Shown here in pieces: positions 20,795-54,388 of a stretch of 64,000 bases of DNA. The position numbers and the translations under genes are program-made. Each line of letters opens with the position of its first letter. Positions within the stretch are counted from its first letter, which is position 1. The stretch covers positions 310,001 through 374,000 of the forward strand of contig NZ_QBKT01000005.1 in assembly GCF_003054265.1 (NCBI RefSeq), in the 5' to 3' direction. The notes under the pieces were generated by a model. The model had not been told where the DNA came from. It saw nothing but the letters and a program-made list of their open reading frames with translations, and did no database searches. Origin of the DNA: Kordia periserrulae (GTDB lineage Bacteria > Bacteroidota > Bacteroidia > Flavobacteriales > Flavobacteriaceae).

Positions 20795-22093
20795 TTGTTG
20801 AAAAGAGTTTTAAAATATCTCAAAGATATTGGGCGACTTGAACGTTTTGAAATAAATAACAGTAGCATCACTTTTTTACTTGCAGGACCGAGTACCTACA
20901 TTTATGTAATGTTTATGTTACACTACAACCCCGATTTAATTATTCCGTATCGTGGCGAAATTGTATTTTCGTTATGGTTTGTTTTTGTTGGAATTCTTCC
21001 GTATTTTAAAAATACCTTTCTCGATGAAATTTACGGCTGGATTAGCTTTGCTAGTCTAATGATTTTTCAATATTATCTTACGTATACTACAGCGTTGAAC
21101 GACTTTTCACTGGATTATCTTCTCGTAACGTATGTGTTTATTTTTGGAGCTGTGTTATTGTTGAGCAATCGTTTGTTGGTCGTTATTTTTAGTGCATTTC
21201 AGTTGATTCATTTGGCGTATCGTGTATATTATTCTGATTTGGATAGCATGTCCGAAAGTGCCATTTTAGTCTCCATGAGTACCATTTTTATCTTTTCTTT
21301 TTTGGTGATGAATGGATTGATTCGCTATCGAAAAAATTTAGAAGCGATTAATGTAGAATTGGAAAAGCGCATTCAGCAACGTACGGAAGATTTACAAACT
21401 CGTGCAAAAGAATTACTCCGAAAAAATAAAGATTTAGAAGAGTTTGCCTATGTAGTTTCACACGATTTAAAACGTCCGTTGCGCAATATTTATACCTTAA
21501 CAGAATGGCTCACAGACGATACGGAGTACCAATTTAACCAAGAAACCAATCAAAGTTTGCAATTGATAAAAGAACAAGTAACGCAAATGGATTTATTGGT
21601 TGAAGGTATTTTGAATTATTCGCTGCAAATGGACAAAGAACGCAATGTGACTACTATTGACTCTCAAGAGTTGGTGAACAGAATTGCTACGGTAAACGCC
21701 AGCGATATGGTAAAAATTCACGTAGATGATACATTGCCAAAAGTGGTTTTTAACGAATCGCAACTGCTACAAGTATTTCAAAACCTGATACAAAATGCCA
21801 TCAAACACAACGACAAAGAATTGGCGGAAATTCATGTGAACTATCAGCAAACAGCTGCTGGACATCAGTTTTCTATTCAAGACAATGGTCCGGGAATTGC
21901 AAAAAAATATCACAAGAAAATCTTTGAACTGTTCCAAAAACTAGAAGTCAAATCGGAAGTTGATTCTATCGGAATTGGATTGGCATTGGTGAAAAAAATC
22001 ATAGAACGGAATGGAGGAAGTATTGCTGTAGAAAGTGAATTAGGCGTTGGAACTTCTTTTATATTTACCATTCCAACGGAAGTCAAATCCTGA
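20795..22093 (+). CDS. Membrane sensor histidine kinase (paralogue 1)
   Basis: About 432 residues. The first 180 residues contain about six hydrophobic segments with no known ligand-binding signature. A short coiled coil (about 180-210) follows, then the HisKA H-box FAYVVSHDLKRPLRNIYTL with the phospho-accepting His near residue 222. The HATPase domain has NLIQNAIKHN, DNGPGIA and GIGLALVKKI. There is no receiver domain and no response regulator next to it. The start is a TTG at 20795 or 20798: alignment with the next gene puts the N-terminus here and no ATG is available nearby. It is 27 bases upstream of a close paralogue. Confidence 0.88.
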   Translation: MLKRVLKYLKDIGRLERFEINNSSITFLLAGPSTYIYVMFMLHYNPDLIIPYRGEIVFSLWFVFVGILPYFKNTFLDEIYGWISFASLMIFQYYLTYTTALNDFSLDYLLVTYVFIFGAVLLLSNRLLVVIFSAFQLIHLAYRVYYSDLDSMSESAILVSMSTIFIFSFLVMNGLIRYRKNLEAINVELEKRIQQRTEDLQTRAKELLRKNKDLEEFAYVVSHDLKRPLRNIYTLTEWLTDDTEYQFNQETNQSLQLIKEQVTQMDLLVEGILNYSLQMDKERNVTTIDSQELVNRIATVNASDMVKIHVDDTLPKVVFNESQLLQVFQNLIQNAIKHNDKELAEIHVNYQQTAAGHQFSIQDNGPGIAKKYHKKIFELFQKLEVKSEVDSIGIGLALVKKIIERNGGSIAVESELGVGTSFIFTIPTEVKS

Positions 22094-22120: not shown

Positions 22121-23401
22121 ATGACAAAAAATGTACTCCAAAATATAGGTTCTTTAAAACCGTTTGAAATACGCAATAGCTACATTACGCTAATTTTGGG
22201 CGCGCCGAGTACATACATCTATCTGGAAATCATAAAACATTACAATCCAGATATCATACTGCCTTTTTATGGAAATATTGTATTTGCCTTGATTTTCTTG
22301 CTTATCGGAATTTCAGCAAACTTTCGGGTGAAATTTATTTTGCAAAATTATGGTTGGCTGGTATTTGGTTCTACAATGGCTTTTCAGCATTACCTCACGT
22401 ATGCTACGCATTTGAATAATTTTTCGTTAGATATTTTATTGGTGAATTATGTATTTGTTTTTGGCTCGGTATTGTTGTTGAGTAATCGAATTTTAGTATT
22501 GATTTACAGTTTTACAGAAGCCATTCACTTAGCGTACGTAGTATATATTTCTGATTTAGATGCCATGAGAGAAAGCGCCATATTGCTCTCTACGATGGCA
22601 ATTTTTATCTGTGCTTTTTGGATGATGAACGGATTTATTCGCTATCAACGGAAAATGGAATTGCTGAATTCAACGCTGGAAGATACTGTACAACAACATA
22701 CGTTAGATTTGGAGATTCGCGCCAAAGAACTGCTAGAAAAGAACAAAGACTTGGAAGAGTTTGCCTATGTCGTTTCTCACGATTTAAAACGTCCGTTGCG
22801 AAATATTTACACCTTAACCGATTGGCTTTCCGAAGATGACGACGAGCAAATAAACGCAGAAGCCATCAAAAGTTTGCAACAAATAAAGGGACAAGTCGCA
22901 CAAATGGATTTGCTGGTAGAAGGTATCTTAAATTATTCATTACAAGCAGAACCTGAGCAATCGGTAAAGGAAGTCAATTTACACACTACCGTAAAGCGCA
23001 TTGTAGATAGCTTGGCTGGCGAAAATGTCTCAGTTTCATTAGAAAAAAAGTTACCACGCGTTTTGTACAACGAATCGCAAATACAGCAAATATTTTTCAA
23101 CTTACTGCAAAATGCCATCAAACATAACGATAAAGAACACATAGAAATTTCAATCGATTATGAAGTCAATAAACTTCAATACAAATTCTTTATCAAAGAC
23201 AACGGTCCTGGAATTGCAGAAAAATATCATGGAAAAATATTTGAGCTTTTTCAAAAATTACAAACAGACGTACAAGAAGAAGCTATCGGAATTGGATTGG
23301 CGTTGGTAAAAAAAATTGTAGAACGCAACGACGGGAAAATTTATGTAAAAAGCACCGAAGGAAATGGCGCTACTTTTATATTTACGATTCCGAAAAAATA
23401 A
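22121..23401 (+). CDS. Membrane sensor histidine kinase (paralogue 2)
   Basis: 426 residues with the same layout as the preceding gene: a multi-helix N-terminal membrane sensor (GAPSTYIYLEI, VFVFGSVLLLSNR), a coiled coil, the H-box EFAYVVSHDLKRPLRNIYTL near residue 219, then NLLQNAIKHN, DNGPGIAEKYHGKIFELFQK and GIGLALVKKIVERN. The kinase halves are nearly identical in DNA and protein, whereas the membrane halves differ more. This is a tandem duplication whose input domains have diverged. No response regulator gene is in the window, so output must act on a distant partner. Confidence 0.9.
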   Translation: MTKNVLQNIGSLKPFEIRNSYITLILGAPSTYIYLEIIKHYNPDIILPFYGNIVFALIFLLIGISANFRVKFILQNYGWLVFGSTMAFQHYLTYATHLNNFSLDILLVNYVFVFGSVLLLSNRILVLIYSFTEAIHLAYVVYISDLDAMRESAILLSTMAIFICAFWMMNGFIRYQRKMELLNSTLEDTVQQHTLDLEIRAKELLEKNKDLEEFAYVVSHDLKRPLRNIYTLTDWLSEDDDEQINAEAIKSLQQIKGQVAQMDLLVEGILNYSLQAEPEQSVKEVNLHTTVKRIVDSLAGENVSVSLEKKLPRVLYNESQIQQIFFNLLQNAIKHNDKEHIEISIDYEVNKLQYKFFIKDNGPGIAEKYHGKIFELFQKLQTDVQEEAIGIGLALVKKIVERNDGKIYVKSTEGNGATFIFTIPKK

Positions 23402-23510: not shown

Positions 23511-25280
23511 ATGAGCTTACTATTTCGTTTCAAACATTGGAGTATTCTTACAATTTGCATGCTTTTCTATTTTTTTATAAGCAGTGCTGTTGCTCAAAAT
23601 CAAACTTCAAAAGTTGATGAAATTACTGCTTTTAAAACGGCATTGCAACAACTTTCTTTTAACGATGTGGTAGAAGAATATTACAAGTACAGAGTTGTAG
23701 ATTCTACAAAAGCAGCAACCGTTATAGCGTATTTACGAACGAATTTTATCAATTCTGATGATGAAAACGAAGTCGCAGAAACCTATATCACCATGGCAAG
23801 CTGGCAGAAGAAAAATGATAGTTTGCAATCATCACTCACAAGCTTAAACATCGCAATTGAGAAGTTACAATCGTTGGATAACAAACCTTTATTATTTGAA
23901 GCACACAACAAAAAAGGAGTCTATTTATTCGAAAATGGCGAGAACGAAGTAGCACTAGAAAATTTCTTAACCGCATTTCAAATTGCCAGAGAAACAAACA
24001 ATATCAAAGATGAACTGAGTGCGTCCAACAATATCATTCTTATTAAAATTCAAGCGTATGATAATTTGGGAGCCATCGATTTATATCTTGAAAATTTAAA
24101 GCGTATCAAAGCTTCAGGCGATGTAGCTTTGGAAAATAAAAAATTCCCCATATATCTCGGATTGACCAAAGCGTATATCAATTTGGAAAAATACCAAGAA
24201 GCCAGTCAATACGCGCATGAAGGTTTTGAGTTGAGCAAGCAAAAAAATATAGTGGCATATCAAGCGTATTTCACAACATTTTTAGGGGAAATAGCTTCTA
24301 ATAATGGAAACTATACTGAAGCCAGTGCGTCGTTTAAAAGGGCAAAAGAATTGATAGATGAAGCGGGCGGAGACAAAGTGTTGGACATTTTTTTGAAATT
24401 GTACTTAGGAAAAAATTTTGCAGCACAAAACAAACACCAAGAAGCTATAAAAGTATTTTTGGAAGGAGAACAATTACTACAAAAAAATGAAGTCGATTTT
24501 CTAAGCATTCAAGAGTTGTATGTGGGTTTGGCTAAATCGTATTTAGCATTAGAAAACATTGAGCAAAGTTCAAAATACTTTGAAAAAGCATACGAAATTG
24601 ACGTAAAAAATGACAAAACACGCGCGGTCATCAATTCGAGGATTATGCAAGATGAACTCGGTAAGTTGAAGGAGCAAATTACAGATTTAAGAACACGGTC
24701 GCAACAAACAAAATATTATTACGCTTTCGGCATCGGATTGCTTATTTTGGTGATTATTGGCTTGATAATGTATTACAAAAAACAACAACGCAACAACAAA
24801 AAGTTGTTTCAAAAGCTAATGTTAGCTTTGGAAGACAAACGTTTGCAGGAAAAAAATGCTGTGAACACAACTATAGAAGACATAGCAAAAAGTTCTGTTG
24901 GTGATGCATCAAAAGCTCCTGAAATAGACGAAACTACTGCTGAAATTCTTCAAAAGTTAGAAGAATTTGAAGCCAATGAAATGTTTTTAAGCAATGAAAG
25001 CACGTTGGTAGAAGTGGCGAAAAAATTACAAACCAACACCACCTACCTTTCCAAGGTCATCAATACGTACAAAGAAAAATCGTTCACAGCATATCTAACC
25101 GATTTACGGGTTGATTATGCCATTGAGCGTTTATCGAAAGATCGAAAATTTCGTTCATATACCATTGGTGCTATCGCACAAGAAATTGGTTTCAAACGCT
25201 CGGAATCTTTCTCTAAAGCCTTTAAAATAAAGACAGGTTTGTATCCGTCATACTTTATAAAAGAGCTTGAAAAACAATAG
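23511..25280 (+). CDS. TPR sensor with one membrane segment and C-terminal AraC-type DNA-binding domain (copy 1)
   Basis: 589 residues. An N-terminal hydrophobic signal segment ends in AVAQNQ. TPR-like helical repeats fill about residues 60-390 (ASFKRAKELIDEAGG, SSKYFEKAYEID). A single membrane helix lies near 403-424 (FGIGLLILVIIGLIMYY). A coiled cytoplasmic linker leads to an AraC HTH at about 485-589 (FLSNESTLVEVAKKLQTNTT, then FRSYTIGAIAQEIGFKRSES). The TPR part would lie outside the inner membrane and the HTH inside, giving a one-protein signal path from periplasm to DNA. A Cys-rich peptide gene follows 112 bases later, and the whole unit is repeated next door. Confidence 0.87.
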   Translation: MSLLFRFKHWSILTICMLFYFFISSAVAQNQTSKVDEITAFKTALQQLSFNDVVEEYYKYRVVDSTKAATVIAYLRTNFINSDDENEVAETYITMASWQKKNDSLQSSLTSLNIAIEKLQSLDNKPLLFEAHNKKGVYLFENGENEVALENFLTAFQIARETNNIKDELSASNNIILIKIQAYDNLGAIDLYLENLKRIKASGDVALENKKFPIYLGLTKAYINLEKYQEASQYAHEGFELSKQKNIVAYQAYFTTFLGEIASNNGNYTEASASFKRAKELIDEAGGDKVLDIFLKLYLGKNFAAQNKHQEAIKVFLEGEQLLQKNEVDFLSIQELYVGLAKSYLALENIEQSSKYFEKAYEIDVKNDKTRAVINSRIMQDELGKLKEQITDLRTRSQQTKYYYAFGIGLLILVIIGLIMYYKKQQRNNKKLFQKLMLALEDKRLQEKNAVNTTIEDIAKSSVGDASKAPEIDETTAEILQKLEEFEANEMFLSNESTLVEVAKKLQTNTTYLSKVINTYKEKSFTAYLTDLRVDYAIERLSKDRKFRSYTIGAIAQEIGFKRSESFSKAFKIKTGLYPSYFIKELEKQ

Positions 25281-25392
25281 GTTATGATGTGTATTGCTCG
25301 CTTTTTATAAATTACGACTAGTATTATGAAAGGTAGCGCTCATTTTCTCGTTATCTTACAAACGACTACAATTTCGAAATACTACAAACGAT

Positions 25393-25596
25393 ATGAAAAA
25401 AGAAAGAAAATTACAGTTAACCTTAAAAAAGGTAAGCATCTCAAAATTACAAACTGTTATTGGAAAAGGTCTCGTTACGTCTATTGATCTTCCTTGTGCT
25501 GTATCTGAAAACTGTATTGTCAGTGTAATTTGTTCAGATCCAAATGCGGATTGTAAAACTTTTTTAACAGTATCAGACAGTCAAGAACGATGTTAA
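25393..25596 (+). CDS. Small Cys-rich peptide with RiPP/lanthipeptide-like leader (copy 1)
   Basis: 67 residues. The N-terminal half is basic and amphipathic (KLQLTLKKVSISKLQ), like leaders of the class I lanthipeptide precursors annotated in related Bacteroidota. Conserved GKxLV and a hydrophobic I-x-P segment follow, shared with the second peptide. The core region contains Cys at 35, 41, 47, 54 and 67 plus many Ser and Thr, and ends in ERC. No double-Gly cut site is evident, unlike the peptides at 53.4-54.4 kb. No modification or export enzyme is near. It follows a TPR-AraC regulator and is closed by a strong terminator. Whether it is modified, secreted or a signal is unknown. Confidence 0.75.
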   Translation: MKKERKLQLTLKKVSISKLQTVIGKGLVTSIDLPCAVSENCIVSVICSDPNADCKTFLTVSDSQERC

Positions 25597-25649
25597 TTTA
25601 AGCGGATGCACAAAATTTGAAGAAAACGAATTGAATTCCTTAAAAACGA

Positions 25650-25681
25650 AAACTCCTAAGAACATTCTTAGGAGTTTTTTT
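25650..25681 (+). terminator. Terminator after peptide gene 1
   Basis: AACTCCTAAGAA and TTCTTAGGAGTT form a 12-bp perfect stem with a two-base loop and a run of T. It closes the first regulator-peptide unit. Confidence 0.88.
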
Positions 25682-25839
25682 AGTGTAAAGAATTTTGTGA
25701 TTTTTTTAGTGTACTAGTGAATTCTTATTCAATTCATTCTTAGCTTTTTCCAATGCAACAGGCATATCGCTATGGCAATTGCGAATGTAGTTTTACCAAA
25801 ATTGCGCTAAAAAACATACATAAATTACGGGAAAACCGT

Positions 25840-25847
25840 TATTTTTG
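25840..25847 (+). promoter_or_regulatory. -7 promoter element before TPR-AraC gene 2
   Basis: TATTTTTG fits TAnnTTTG. Transcription would start near 25853, which supports the ATG at 25887 over a TTG at 25845. No clear TTG box is seen upstream. Confidence 0.42.
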
Positions 25848-25886
25848 AACAATTACCTACCGCAACATATAAAACTGTATTCCTGT

Positions 25887-27692
25887 ATGCCTCAAACAAA
25901 ACGTATTACGCTTTTATTAGTATTATTTTGTGCAATACTAGGACACAAATCTTTTTCCAGAACAATAATTCAAGATAGTATTGCGCAATTTGATAAAGTT
26001 GCATTTCAGGATTCTTTGCGTGTGTTGGCGCCAAAGGAGTTTGTGAGATTGTTTACAATACAATATATAGAGGATAAAAATAAAGCTAGTGCAAGTCTAG
26101 AATACGTTATGAATGATATGCTCAATTCTAACGAACTTGAAATGCAGTTTTGGGGATATATTTCGTTAGCTAAATGGGAAAATTACAACACAAACTTCAA
26201 CGAGTCTTTGGATTATGTTTTAAAAGCAACTCAAACAGCAAAGAGCATAAACTCTTTAGATTTGTTATTACGAACACATATTTATCAAGGGGATTTCTAC
26301 TATGATGCTGGAAAATACAAGAAATCAATGGAAGCCTATTTAAAGGCAATGAGATATGCAAAAGAAACAAATCATGTAGGTCGGCAATTGGCTATTTCAA
26401 AAAATATAGCCTTATTGAAACTAGAAGTAGGCGATGCAAAAGGATCTGCAGATTTATTAGAAGGAACTCTTAAAATTCTAGAAGCGCAAAATTCACCAAA
26501 ACTAAATAGATTAGAGGTAAGTATTTATATTGCGTTAACAAAATCCTATTTGCGATTGGGAGATTATGAGAAGTCTAAATACTACGGTACAAAGGGCTTG
26601 CAACTCAGCAATAAATATGGAGACGAAGATGCTAAAGCATATTTGTATAATTTTTTAGGAGAAACGAATATAGCTGTTGAGAAACTTCAAGAAGCGATGT
26701 TGTACTTAGACAAAGCACTAAACTATGCGAAAGAGATAGAAACTTCTAAATCTCAAATTCCTTTTATAAACCTAAATAGGGCAAAAGCTTTTTTTTACAA
26801 AAAAGACTATACAACGGCTATCCAAATTTTAGAAGCTATAGAAACGCATCAAAAACGTAAAAAAATAAGTTTTTTTAGTTTAGAAGATATGTATGAGTTT
26901 TTAGGAAAATCATATAAAGCCCTTGGGAATACTGAGAAAAGCCTTTTTTATTTTGAAAAAACAAATGAAGTATATACTGAAAATGATAAAAAGCAAAATG
27001 AAATAGGTCTTGAAATTATTAAAAAGTATGATTTACAGTCGTTGAAAGAAGAACTAAATCAGGCAGAACAAAAAACAGTAAAAACTAGAATCGTTTTATA
27101 TGTTAGTATTTTTTTAGCGATTTTGGTTGTGATTGGTTTGGTATTATTCTATAAAAATCGCGAAAAGCGTAATCAACAAAAATTTGAATCCCTTTTACAT
27201 TCGTTGGAAATAGAAAAAGAAAAAGCACTCTTGGCTAAAGAAGCAGCAATAAAGAAAGCTACAGAAGAAAAAATAATGATTGAAAAAGTTGTTCCTGATG
27301 AAACAACGGATAAAGAAGTTGAAATCATTGACGAAACAAAAGCCAAACTTTTAAAGAAACTCCAAAACTTTGAAGATAAAGAACTGTATTTAAGCAAAAA
27401 CAGCAGCTTAAACGATGTAGCCAAAAAGTTAAAAACCAATACTTCGTATTTATCAAAATTGGTCAATGCGCATAAGGGGAAGTCCTTTACAGCATACATT
27501 ACCGATTTACGGGTTAATTATGCCATTAGACGTTTAAAAGAAGATAAAAAATTCCGTTCCTATACCATAGATTCCATTGCCAGAGACATCGGTTTCAATC
27601 GTTCAGAATCGTTTTCGAGAGCCTTTAAAAATAAAACAGGACTATATCCTTCATATTATATAAAAAGACTTGATAGTCAGAACATTGAGTAG
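25887..27692 (+). CDS. TPR sensor with one membrane segment and C-terminal AraC-type DNA-binding domain (copy 2)
   Basis: About 601 residues. The signal segment is ITLLLVLFCAILGHKSFS. TPR-like repeats follow (YDAGKYKKSMEAYLKAMRYA, LRLGDYEKSKYYGTKGLQL). A membrane helix lies near 402-420 (VSIFLAILVVIGLVLFY), then a Lys/Glu-rich coiled linker and an AraC HTH with SLNDVAKKLKTNTSYLSKL and FRSYTIDSIARDIGFNRSES. The HTH half is very similar to copy 1, including at DNA level, while the TPR part has diverged. The ATG at 25887 is preferred on promoter position. A second Cys-rich peptide gene follows 100 bases later, so regulator and peptide duplicated together. Confidence 0.86.
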   Translation: MPQTKRITLLLVLFCAILGHKSFSRTIIQDSIAQFDKVAFQDSLRVLAPKEFVRLFTIQYIEDKNKASASLEYVMNDMLNSNELEMQFWGYISLAKWENYNTNFNESLDYVLKATQTAKSINSLDLLLRTHIYQGDFYYDAGKYKKSMEAYLKAMRYAKETNHVGRQLAISKNIALLKLEVGDAKGSADLLEGTLKILEAQNSPKLNRLEVSIYIALTKSYLRLGDYEKSKYYGTKGLQLSNKYGDEDAKAYLYNFLGETNIAVEKLQEAMLYLDKALNYAKEIETSKSQIPFINLNRAKAFFYKKDYTTAIQILEAIETHQKRKKISFFSLEDMYEFLGKSYKALGNTEKSLFYFEKTNEVYTENDKKQNEIGLEIIKKYDLQSLKEELNQAEQKTVKTRIVLYVSIFLAILVVIGLVLFYKNREKRNQQKFESLLHSLEIEKEKALLAKEAAIKKATEEKIMIEKVVPDETTDKEVEIIDETKAKLLKKLQNFEDKELYLSKNSSLNDVAKKLKTNTSYLSKLVNAHKGKSFTAYITDLRVNYAIRRLKEDKKFRSYTIDSIARDIGFNRSESFSRAFKNKTGLYPSYYIKRLDSQNIE

Positions 27693-27757
27693 TGTTTTTT
27701 ATACTCGTGATTTATGAATTTCTAGATGTATTTTTTAAAAAAACTATGCTTCGCATT

Positions 27758-27765
27758 TATATTTG
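27758..27765 (+). promoter_or_regulatory. -7 promoter element before peptide gene 2
   Basis: TATATTTG fits TAnnTTTG and lies 28 bases before the peptide start, so the peptide probably has its own promoter, separate from the regulator gene. Confidence 0.42.
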
Positions 27766-27792
27766 AGCATAACTTATGAAACCAAATGATTT

Positions 27793-28086
27793 ATGAAGAA
27801 AAAACAGATTCTCTCTAAACTCCAATTGCAAAAAACGACTATTGTATCCTTTAAAGCCATGAAAACTATTATGGGAAAATCACTTGTAAATGTAGATACG
27901 ATTCCAATTTCAGTTGATGGCGTTACCTGTGTAACTTTAACGGATTGCCGAACACAAGATGGTCAGTATACCTGTATGTCTTGTACGGGTGATGAATGTA
28001 CACGCCCAACGACCAGAACTGGTGATTCTCATGATTGTGGAGCAAATGATACCAAAGAAAACTGTCTAGATACTAGACGCTGTTAA
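27793..28086 (+). CDS. Small Cys-rich peptide with RiPP/lanthipeptide-like leader (copy 2)
   Basis: 97 residues. The leader (ILSKLQLQKTTIVSFKAMKT) keeps the LxLxK pattern and the downstream GKxLV and I-x-P of copy 1. The C-terminal half is much longer and has eight Cys (46, 52, 61, 64, 69, 82, 91, 97), many Thr and Asp, a CxxC, and ends in RRC. Copy 1 ends in ERC, so a terminal Cys is conserved. It may be a lanthipeptide-like or disulfide-rich secreted product. No LanB, LanC, radical-SAM or peptide exporter gene is in the window. A terminator follows 30 bases later. Confidence 0.75.
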   Translation: MKKKQILSKLQLQKTTIVSFKAMKTIMGKSLVNVDTIPISVDGVTCVTLTDCRTQDGQYTCMSCTGDECTRPTTRTGDSHDCGANDTKENCLDTRRC

Positions 28087-53443: not shown

Positions 53444-53638
53444 CTATCCGCAGAATAATTCAGTTTGACAATCTTCTGTAACCATTGGTGGATCACACGG
53501 ACCTGTTAATTGAAAACAACAAAGTAGCAAAACGCCATCAGTAATAAATGTCAATCTTGGATCGCCTCCAGCAACATTTTCAAAATTTGAAATTGACTTT
53601 TTGTTCAATTTTAATGATTTTAAATTCTTTTTTTTCAT
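53444..53638 (-). CDS. RiPP precursor peptide, class I lanthipeptide-like leader (A)
   Basis: 64 residues. The leader NLKSLKLNKKSISNFENVAG ends in GG at 24-25 and is nearly the same as in the third peptide. The core has Cys at 40, 41, 48, 57 and 63 with several Thr. GG is a typical cut site for leader removal by C39-type exporters. No lanthionine synthetase or exporter is adjacent. The gene has its own terminator. Confidence 0.78.
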   Translation of the reverse strand: MKKKNLKSLKLNKKSISNFENVAGGDPRLTFITDGVLLLCCFQLTGPCDPPMVTEDCQTELFCG

Positions 53639-53823: not shown

Positions 53824-53973
53824 TTACTGTTCTTCTTGTTTTGTTGGACAATGTCCGTACGATGGACAATGACAAATAGAAAGTGGTTTGGAATCGGTGC
53901 CACCTTTCAATTTAGCAATGGTAGAAATGGTTTCTTTTTTAAGATTGAACGAGTTGATTTCCTTCTTTTTCAT
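53824..53973 (-). CDS. RiPP precursor peptide, class I lanthipeptide-like leader (B)
   Basis: 49 residues. The leader EINSFNLKKETISTIAKLKG ends in GG at 24-25; the core has Cys at 34, 36 and 42 with Ser and Thr, and ends in an acidic EEQ. The start at 53973 is chosen because MKKKEIN gives the shared leader; a longer frame to 54042 adds hydrophobic non-family sequence. It is the shortest of the three. Confidence 0.75.
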   Translation of the reverse strand: MKKKEINSFNLKKETISTIAKLKGGTDSKPLSICHCPSYGHCPTKQEEQ

Positions 53974-54196: not shown

Positions 54197-54388
54197 TTAA
54201 CAATTGATGGAAGTACAAGGACCAATAGTGTATATACAGGCATTAGGACAATAATCAATAGTAGTATCGTTCACACAATCTGGTGCTGCTGTTCTTGGGT
54301 CATTTTGTCCACCATTCAATTTAAAGTCGTTTAATTTTGAAATGGACTTTTTGTTTAGCTTTAATGATTTTAAACTTTTTCTTTTCAT
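54197..54388 (-). CDS. RiPP precursor peptide, class I lanthipeptide-like leader (C)
   Basis: 63 residues. The leader SLKSLKLNKKSISKLNDFKL ends in GG at 26-27 and almost matches peptide A over KSLKLNKKSIS. The core has Cys at 38, 47, 51, 58 and 63, with the last residue Cys, plus several Thr. Three such genes in a row, each with its own terminator, suggest a set of related products with variable cores. No processing enzyme is in the window. Confidence 0.78.
   Translation of the reverse strand: MKRKSLKSLKLNKKSISKLNDFKLNGGQNDPRTAAPDCVNDTTIDYCPNACIYTIGPCTSINC

Follow-up and report, generated by a model that had tools for sequence, protein, structure and literature searches.

In nisin-type autoinduction (NisRK), a lanthipeptide induces its own gene through a histidine kinase and a response regulator. 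Peptide pheromone systems built around tetratricopeptide repeat (TPR) receptors have been described from Gram-positive bacteria (PMC10075063), and class I lanthipeptide leaders together with a split LanB are already known from Bacteroidetes (PMC7268733). We analyzed a 64,000-nucleotide stretch of the genome of the marine bacterium Kordia periserrulae (contig NZ_QBKT01000005.1, forward-strand positions 310,001 to 374,000; hereafter the window), in which two adjacent units each consist of a TPR-transmembrane-AraC regulator gene followed by the gene of a small Cys-rich peptide. Comparison across genomes firmly supports a conserved regulator-peptide module whose peptides are lanthipeptide-type precursors and which is linked to LanB. 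We propose that each unit is a receptor-propeptide pair, in which a periplasmic TPR-AraC receptor would switch on its own lanthipeptide gene, probably through autoinduction, and hold this reading with about even confidence. The units comprise the following features, numbered from the first nucleotide of the window:

23511 to 25280, + strand: regulator 1, 589 amino acids (aa), with a signal-peptide-like N terminus, a TPR array, one predicted transmembrane (TM) helix and an AraC-type helix-turn-helix (HTH).
25304 to 25321, + strand: candidate operator TTTATAAATTACGACTAG in gap 1, pattern TTTATRAATN{2,5}CTAG.
25393 to 25596, + strand: peptide 1, 67 aa, with the lanthipeptide-type leader LTLKKVSISKL, 5 Cys and a C-terminal Cys.
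25887 to 27692, + strand: regulator 2, 601 aa from the ATG at 25887 (615 aa from a TTG start at 25845), with the same architecture as regulator 1.
27711 to 27725, + strand: candidate operator TTTATGAATTTCTAG in gap 2, pattern TTTATRAATN{2,5}CTAG.
27758 to 27765, + strand: promoter -7-like box TATATTTG, beginning 35 nucleotides (nt) 5' of the peptide 2 ATG.
27793 to 28086, + strand: peptide 2, 97 aa, with the lanthipeptide-type leader LQLQKTTIVSF, 8 Cys and a C-terminal Cys.

The four open reading frames (ORFs) of the two units, as proposed in an initial annotation, were confirmed by ORF reading and Pfam domains; regulator and peptide lie on the same strand, 112 nt apart in unit 1 and 100 nt apart in unit 2. 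That annotation staked its reading on homologous regulators usually having a downstream peptide and on the peptide frames showing coding conservation, and both were found. The 4.73-Mb genome encodes 17 full-length TPR-TM-AraC regulators, of which 14 are immediately followed by a leader peptide gene in the same orientation and three (C12:127440, C7:234487 and C6:33871) are not. These 17 come from 28 match places: two genes were each joined from two fragments, and nine matches (AraC frames that were short or lacked TPRs, one TPR only) were set aside. Several of the linked peptides are weak on a leader hidden Markov model (HMM; E = 0.02 to 0.5) and were accepted by motif and place, as was the first peptide of the LanB locus described below, which has no leader-HMM match. 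Beyond this genome, the comparison set comprised ten further Kordia genomes. Regulator 1 has orthologues in all 11, and regulator 2 yields 298 matches at E ≤ 1e-20 (15 to 47 per genome). When 40 of the relatives' 113 regulator matches among those listed were drawn at random and the peptides judged by eye, 39 were followed by a leader peptide, at distances of +65 to +131 nt (exception L200). The gap measures 65 to 208 nt in 76 of the 79 Kordia loci with a motif-positive peptide, and a strict leader ORF stands downstream of 57 of 62 regulator ORFs compared to 44 of 325 other ORFs, a generous control since all were taken from loci read around leaders, regulators or LanB. The third tandem regulator in genome G008 (L156) has no peptide by the motif rule.

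Two expanded and dispersed gene families might come to lie side by side through tandem duplication without any functional pairing, and the leader peptides are indeed scattered over many contigs of the genome. We regard this explanation as very improbable. Random placement would give a neighboring peptide with a chance of approximately 0.3% per regulator, so that chance adjacency is rejected for 14 of 17 (binomial P of approximately 7e-33); order, strand and gap are fixed (65 to 208 nt, 76 gaps); and the pairing is conserved in 11 genomes and in other genera, with the candidate operator shared between gaps.

The gaps themselves carry conserved elements. The motif TAnnTTTG, which we take to be the -7 box of Bacteroidetes promoters, occurs in 33 of 76 Kordia gaps compared to a mean of 6.7 (largest 14) in mononucleotide shuffles, the 76 including orthologous gaps that are not independent, and 21 of its 35 occurrences begin 32 to 38 nt before the ATG. 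The box TATATTTG is present in 11 of 11 orthologous gap-2 regions. Sequence identity is 71% for gap 2 (11 genomes) and 64% for gap 1 (9 of 11 aligned, L159 and L164 left out), the level for comparison, at the synonymous sites of the peptide genes, being approximately 35% (proportion of synonymous differences [pS], 0.64 to 0.65). The pattern TTTATRAATN{2,5}CTAG matches two sites in the window, one per gap, where 0.04 are expected, and three in the whole genome, while the reversed pattern matches none; it is kept in 11 of 11 gap-2 and 7 of 11 gap-1 orthologues (this genome included). Since the pattern was drawn from these same gaps, its presence there is circular, and only its rarity and conservation inform. 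It was not found upstream of regulators (up to 300 nt, 76 loci). To judge from these elements, the promoter on which each regulator acts is likely that of the peptide gene following it. Around the third genomic site (C2:44826; L294), none of the four listed ORFs of at least 60 aa is a leader peptide.

Both peptides carry a class I lanthipeptide-type leader, in keeping with their first description as resembling ribosomally synthesized and post-translationally modified peptides (RiPPs). The motif LxLxKx5L, given as the leader motif of class I LanA in Bacteroidetes by Walker et al. (PMC7268733), is complete in peptide 1 and has F as its last L in peptide 2, with orthologues alike. The NCBIfam class I lanthipeptide leader model NF038153 matches residues 1 to 19 of peptide 2 (E = 6e-4, 19.9 bits) and, weakly, peptide 1 (12.8 bits); both scores fall under the curated cut-off of 22, so the leaders are termed lanthipeptide-type and are not formal NF038153 members. 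The leader is K-rich (LxLxK), with neither a hydrophobic core nor a Sec signal seen by eye. Cys counts of 5 and 8, differing core lengths and a terminal Cys were as annotated. The shared I-x-P segment is not literal, peptide 1 having I-D-L-P and peptide 2 I-P, and GKxLV did not hold up as a family feature: GG occupies that position in 8 of 11 peptide 2 orthologues, and GK or GR in three. Each of the 11 Kordia genomes has both peptides in the corresponding position. The proportion of nonsynonymous differences (pN) is lower than pS in 55 of 55 orthologue pairs for each peptide, and the ratio of nonsynonymous to synonymous substitution rates (dN/dS) is approximately 0.34 and 0.25 in the closest pairs for peptides 1 and 2, respectively. 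By these measures the peptide ORFs are real genes under purifying selection, and the possibility that they are not real was rejected. A TraF-like match of peptide 2 was also rejected (20.5 bits against a cut-off of 294).

At least 130 distinct precursors of this kind are encoded in the genome. NF038153 gave 99 matches, 15 of them above cut-off; five that lay within long frames or were C-terminal matches to the profile were removed and two peptides were added, leaving 96, nearly all of the form MKK..LxLxKx5L..GG with a Ser/Thr/Cys-rich core, and a leader HMM built from these found 34 more in the neighborhoods read (E < 0.005). The initial annotation remarked that no modification enzyme is nearby. 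This holds locally, as a profile search of the window's contig (C5) gave no match to LanB or LanC at E ≤ 1, and fails for the genome, whose only LanB (PF04738), with a LanC, adjoins two paralogous units elsewhere (locus L133, contig C7). LanC-like domains (PF05147) number four above cut-off. The order at L133 is extracytoplasmic function (ECF) sigma factor, TPR/anti-sigma-like protein, LanC, LanB-N and LanB-C (the split LanB, PF04738 plus PF14028/TIGR03891), then TPR-AraC and peptide twice over and a GG-leader peptide, with HlyD and an ATP-binding cassette (ABC) exporter on the opposite strand. The exporter gene is cut at the end of the locus; a C39 domain is seen in its full-length orthologue at L222. 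The window thus holds a unit of the type that occurs twice next to the genome's only LanB. As a separate observation, the ECF sigma factor and TPR/anti-sigma-like genes (L133:5032-6395) lie directly 5' of lanC in 11 of 11 Kordia genomes.

Elsewhere in the window, three further GG-leader lanthipeptide-type ORFs lie on the - strand (53444-53638, 53824-53973 and 54197-54388), adjoining no TPR-AraC regulator found in the genome search. Directly upstream of regulator 1 are tandem paralogous ORFs judged by eye to be histidine-kinase-like (20795-22093 and 22121-23401), and in loci L158, L160 and L162 the orthologous unit likewise has a 426-aa ORF in front of it.

The association with LanB extends through the genus and beyond. 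Each of the 11 Kordia genomes has exactly one LanB, with at least one regulator and peptide unit beside it. Among 199 Flavobacteriaceae genomes (two of them Kordia), 18 have LanB and 37 have the regulator (E ≤ 1e-25, with the six top-ranking candidates scored in each), the latter comprising 17 of the 18 genomes with LanB and 20 of the 181 without (Fisher, 1.5e-13). A leader peptide follows the best regulator in 10 of 13 assessable non-Kordia genomes with LanB compared to 1 of 14 without (p = 3e-4), a count that leaves out G187 (broken regulator frame) and G020 and G028 (no regulator locus read). One LanB-negative genome (G120, locus L255) has a GG-leader-like peptide after a TPR-AraC regulator, reflecting either LanB loss or an unrelated peptide. 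At non-Kordia LanB loci, a regulator is near LanB in 9 of 16, with a peptide in all nine; in five of these (L267, L269, L271, L273 and L274) no leader-like ORF other than the regulator-linked peptide was detected in the stretch read, L264 and L272 have one further weak leader candidate each, and L262 and L266 have LanA-like peptides. In a set of 80 LanB loci partly overlapping these genomes, 31 have a regulator, from Kordia, Aquimarina, Dokdonia, Croceivirga and other Flavobacteriaceae or Bacteroidia; a regular expression finds a leader ORF for 40 of their 46 regulators, two of these ORFs being doubtful on inspection by eye (those of the third L317 regulator and the first L347 regulator).

A link between regulator and peptide need not involve lanthionine. 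The leader might serve only export by C39 peptidase-containing transporters (PCAT), or another RiPP enzyme might act, with a linear or otherwise modified ligand, an explanation that we consider improbable. It would suit the linked peptides without Cys in some LanB-positive genomes outside the genus (L234, L236 and L252) and the 7 of 9 non-Kordia LanB-regulator loci in which LanC was not found (BLAST with Kordia LanC only, in the stretch read); together these make ring formation doubtful in those non-Kordia loci. A published predictor also gives Kordia both radical S-adenosylmethionine-modified peptides and lanthipeptides, according to PMC11118758. Against it, downstream peptides track LanB genome by genome, all 11 Kordia genomes have the unit next to LanB and LanC, and the leader motif is that of Bacteroidetes class I LanA as presented in PMC7268733. 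In four of the nine non-Kordia loci (L264, L271, L272 and L274) a subtilisin-like (S8) protease follows the unit, in the order LanB-N, LanB-C, TPR-AraC, peptide, S8 protease, with no LanC by BLAST; these are possibly dehydratase-only or minimal peptide systems.

Domain searches bear out the annotated TPR-membrane-AraC architecture. Regulator 1 has PF13424 (TPR_12) and PF12833 (HTH_18), and regulator 2 has TPRs and HTH_18; PF12833 scores above its gathering threshold in both (E = 2.5e-12 and 4.4e-16), as expected of an AraC/XylS HTH, and the strongest hydrophobic stretch lies between TPR and HTH, from residue 404 in regulator 1 and 402 in regulator 2. A structural model of regulator 2 (mean predicted local distance difference test score [pLDDT] of 84, 38 sequences) comprises an N-terminal helix (2-25; signal-peptide-like by eye), TPR helices (37-345), a long helix (349-461) containing the hydrophobic segment from 402, and the HTH domain (482-597). 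The TPR part is presumably periplasmic, from the N terminus as judged by eye. A profile search with the sensor returned Rap (RapF, E = 8e-17), RapH and NprR among TPR proteins, ranked below LGN and designed TPRs. Foldseek gave 232 matches to the regulator 2 model at E ≤ 0.001; among the 50 listed, the top query-normalized template modeling score (TM-score) is that of Rap-pheromone complexes (0.44; NprR, 0.42), and target-normalized TM-scores reach 0.68 to 0.70 for Rap Phi3T-pheromone complexes and 0.68 for NprR. TPR arrays are common, and the Rap/NprR-like fold therefore supports only that the sensor could bind a peptide in its groove.

The TPR parts have diverged more than the HTH parts, as first noted: regulators 1 and 2 are identical at 109 of 398 aligned TPR positions (27%) and 80 of 120 HTH positions (67%). 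Among orthologues, divergence is 0.51 to 0.57 in the TPR part and 0.61 in the peptide core, compared to 0.12 to 0.15 in the HTH and 0.095 in LanB. A partial Mantel test against LanB gave r = 0.32 (permutation p = 0.028) for pair 1, compared to r = 0.07 (p = 0.25) for core 1 with the other sensor. This pattern is compatible with ligand matching, though no proof of it.

Several findings weigh against a receptor-propeptide pair of lanthipeptide type. The signal of pair 1 is weak and pair 2 gave r = 0.11 (p = 0.17), so that the suggested co-evolution check came out weakly positive for one pair and negative for the other. In the same genomes, two regulators without a peptide have fast-diverging sensors as well (0.43 to 0.47), and TPR divergence is therefore not specific evidence for signaling; compared with these controls, divergence of the window sensors is greater in 11 and 13 of 15 genome pairs and in 18 and 19 of 28, a modest difference. 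Among the Foldseek matches listed, E-values are lower for eukaryotic LGN than for Rap, and one LGN fragment has the highest target-normalized TM-score (0.75). The peptide-paired regulators do not form one clade (tree of 51 rows; 6 label changes compared to 15.5 in shuffles). Peptide 2 has GK at 27874-27879, with GR in relatives L150 and L153, which is not a canonical C39 site. To these are added the leader scores under cut-off, the Cys-free peptides and LanC-negative loci outside the genus, and the derivation of the operator pattern from the gaps in which it is found.

The peptide-less regulators bear on a further explanation. The C7:234487 type (L118; orthologues L286 to L293) keeps a secreted-looking protein of 273 to 296 aa at +99 to +105 nt in 8 of 8 loci, which also counts against the proposed pairing, as the next gene may simply be the regulator's target; the C12:127440 regulator is followed by a subtilase-like protein (judged by eye). 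The regulator might accordingly sense another periplasmic cue, such as envelope stress, a competitor molecule or a nutrient, and activate a neighboring effector lanthipeptide that is not its ligand. The operator and promoter-box evidence fits this equally well, linked cores are diverse and Cys-rich like those of other precursors, and where the linked peptide is the sole leader-like ORF detected near LanB, as in five of the nine non-Kordia loci, that peptide would itself be what the locus makes. That nearly every receptor has a different peptide behind it, with 15 to 47 regulator matches per genome, fits private ligands better than common cues, and the RRNPP-like fold of the sensor also counts against this explanation. 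Regulator-linked leaders differ in composition from other leaders, which leans the same way, in a descriptive comparison where the linked set consists of orthologues from 11 genomes and the other contains duplicates. We see this explanation as possible, at distinctly less than even probability.

Returning to a receptor paired with its own propeptide, we propose that the regulator is a one-component transmembrane transcription factor, in which a periplasmic TPR solenoid serving as the sensor is joined through one TM/coiled linker to a cytoplasmic AraC HTH; it would bind the candidate operator just 5' of the peptide gene and switch that gene on. The genome's one split LanB, together with a LanC, would act in trans on the precursor by recognizing its LxLxKx5L leader, and the precursor would be cleaved mostly at a GG site and exported by the PCAT/HlyD system. 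The mature peptide, in the periplasm or outside the cell, could then dock in the groove of its own regulator's TPR array and so close an autoinducing or peptide-gated loop; that it is this ligand we judge probable, at around the midpoint of our scale. Such a loop would share its logic with the Rap-Phr and PlcR-PapR pheromone pairs and with nisin autoinduction, in a Gram-negative one-component format. We speculate, more tentatively and somewhat short of even, that Kordia and related Flavobacteriaceae run a multichannel network of private receptor-lanthipeptide pairs served by one shared LanB/LanC and exporter. If true, this would constitute an RRNPP-like signaling class of Gram-negative bacteria with post-translationally modified pheromones. 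The pairing suggests how a genome with at least 130 precursors and one LanB might control individual precursors, and the large conserved set of receptors and propeptides, with a candidate operator for two, makes cognate recognition testable pair by pair. It also offers a rule for mining, the place just after TPR-TM-AraC genes in LanB-positive genomes being where to look for precursors under the standard leader-model cut-off.

The abundance of precursors in Kordia is published: mining with TrRiPP reports up to 176 precursors per genome in Bacteroidota and cites Kordia as a RiPP-rich example of Flavobacteriaceae (PMC11118758). The main text of that paper does not contain the words AraC, tetratricopeptide, TPR or regulator. 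For some RiPP clusters of Bacteroidales, genes with TPR domains and an HTH gene have been noted (PMC10352776). The initial annotation knew of no system with this layout, and no description of the regulator-peptide pairing, nor of a TPR-receptor peptide pheromone system in Bacteroidota, was found in the open-access literature searched.

Among the closest known parallels are the RRNPP systems of Firmicutes (Rap-Phr, PlcR-PapR and NprR-NprX), in which a TPR receptor gene is likewise followed directly by a small propeptide gene. Reference receptor-propeptide gaps range from -50 to 191 bp, and the propeptide is taken as a direct neighbor of 10 to 100 aa (PMC10075063), as in the window, where peptides of 67 and 97 aa lie at 112 and 100 nt. 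The same source sets the receptor at 250 to 500 aa and intracellular; regulators 1 and 2 have 589 and 601 aa and a hydrophobic segment from residue 402-404. Unlike RRNPP receptors, the Kordia receptor is thus predicted to be transmembrane, with its TPR part probably periplasmic and an AraC HTH, in a Gram-negative member of the Bacteroidota, and its propeptide has a lanthipeptide-type leader and tracks LanB, with the ligand role only proposed. Class I lanthipeptide systems of Bacteroidetes (e.g., pinensin) share with Kordia the leader motif, split LanB, LanC, ABC transporter with HlyD and S/T/C-rich cores, as set out in PMC7268733, and the genome has both LanB and LanC, though none on the window's contig. 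Kordia differs from them in having one LanB with at least 130 dispersed precursors, a subset of which is tied to TPR-AraC regulators. Prochlorosins are similar in that many precursors are encoded far from one synthetase, LanM (PMC7268733), and unlike in that Kordia uses class I LanB/LanC and pairs a subset of its precursors with regulators. As in nisin-type autoinduction, finally, a lanthipeptide is proposed to induce its own gene, although the NisRK histidine kinase and response regulator would be replaced by a one-component TPR-AraC protein, in many parallel pairs.

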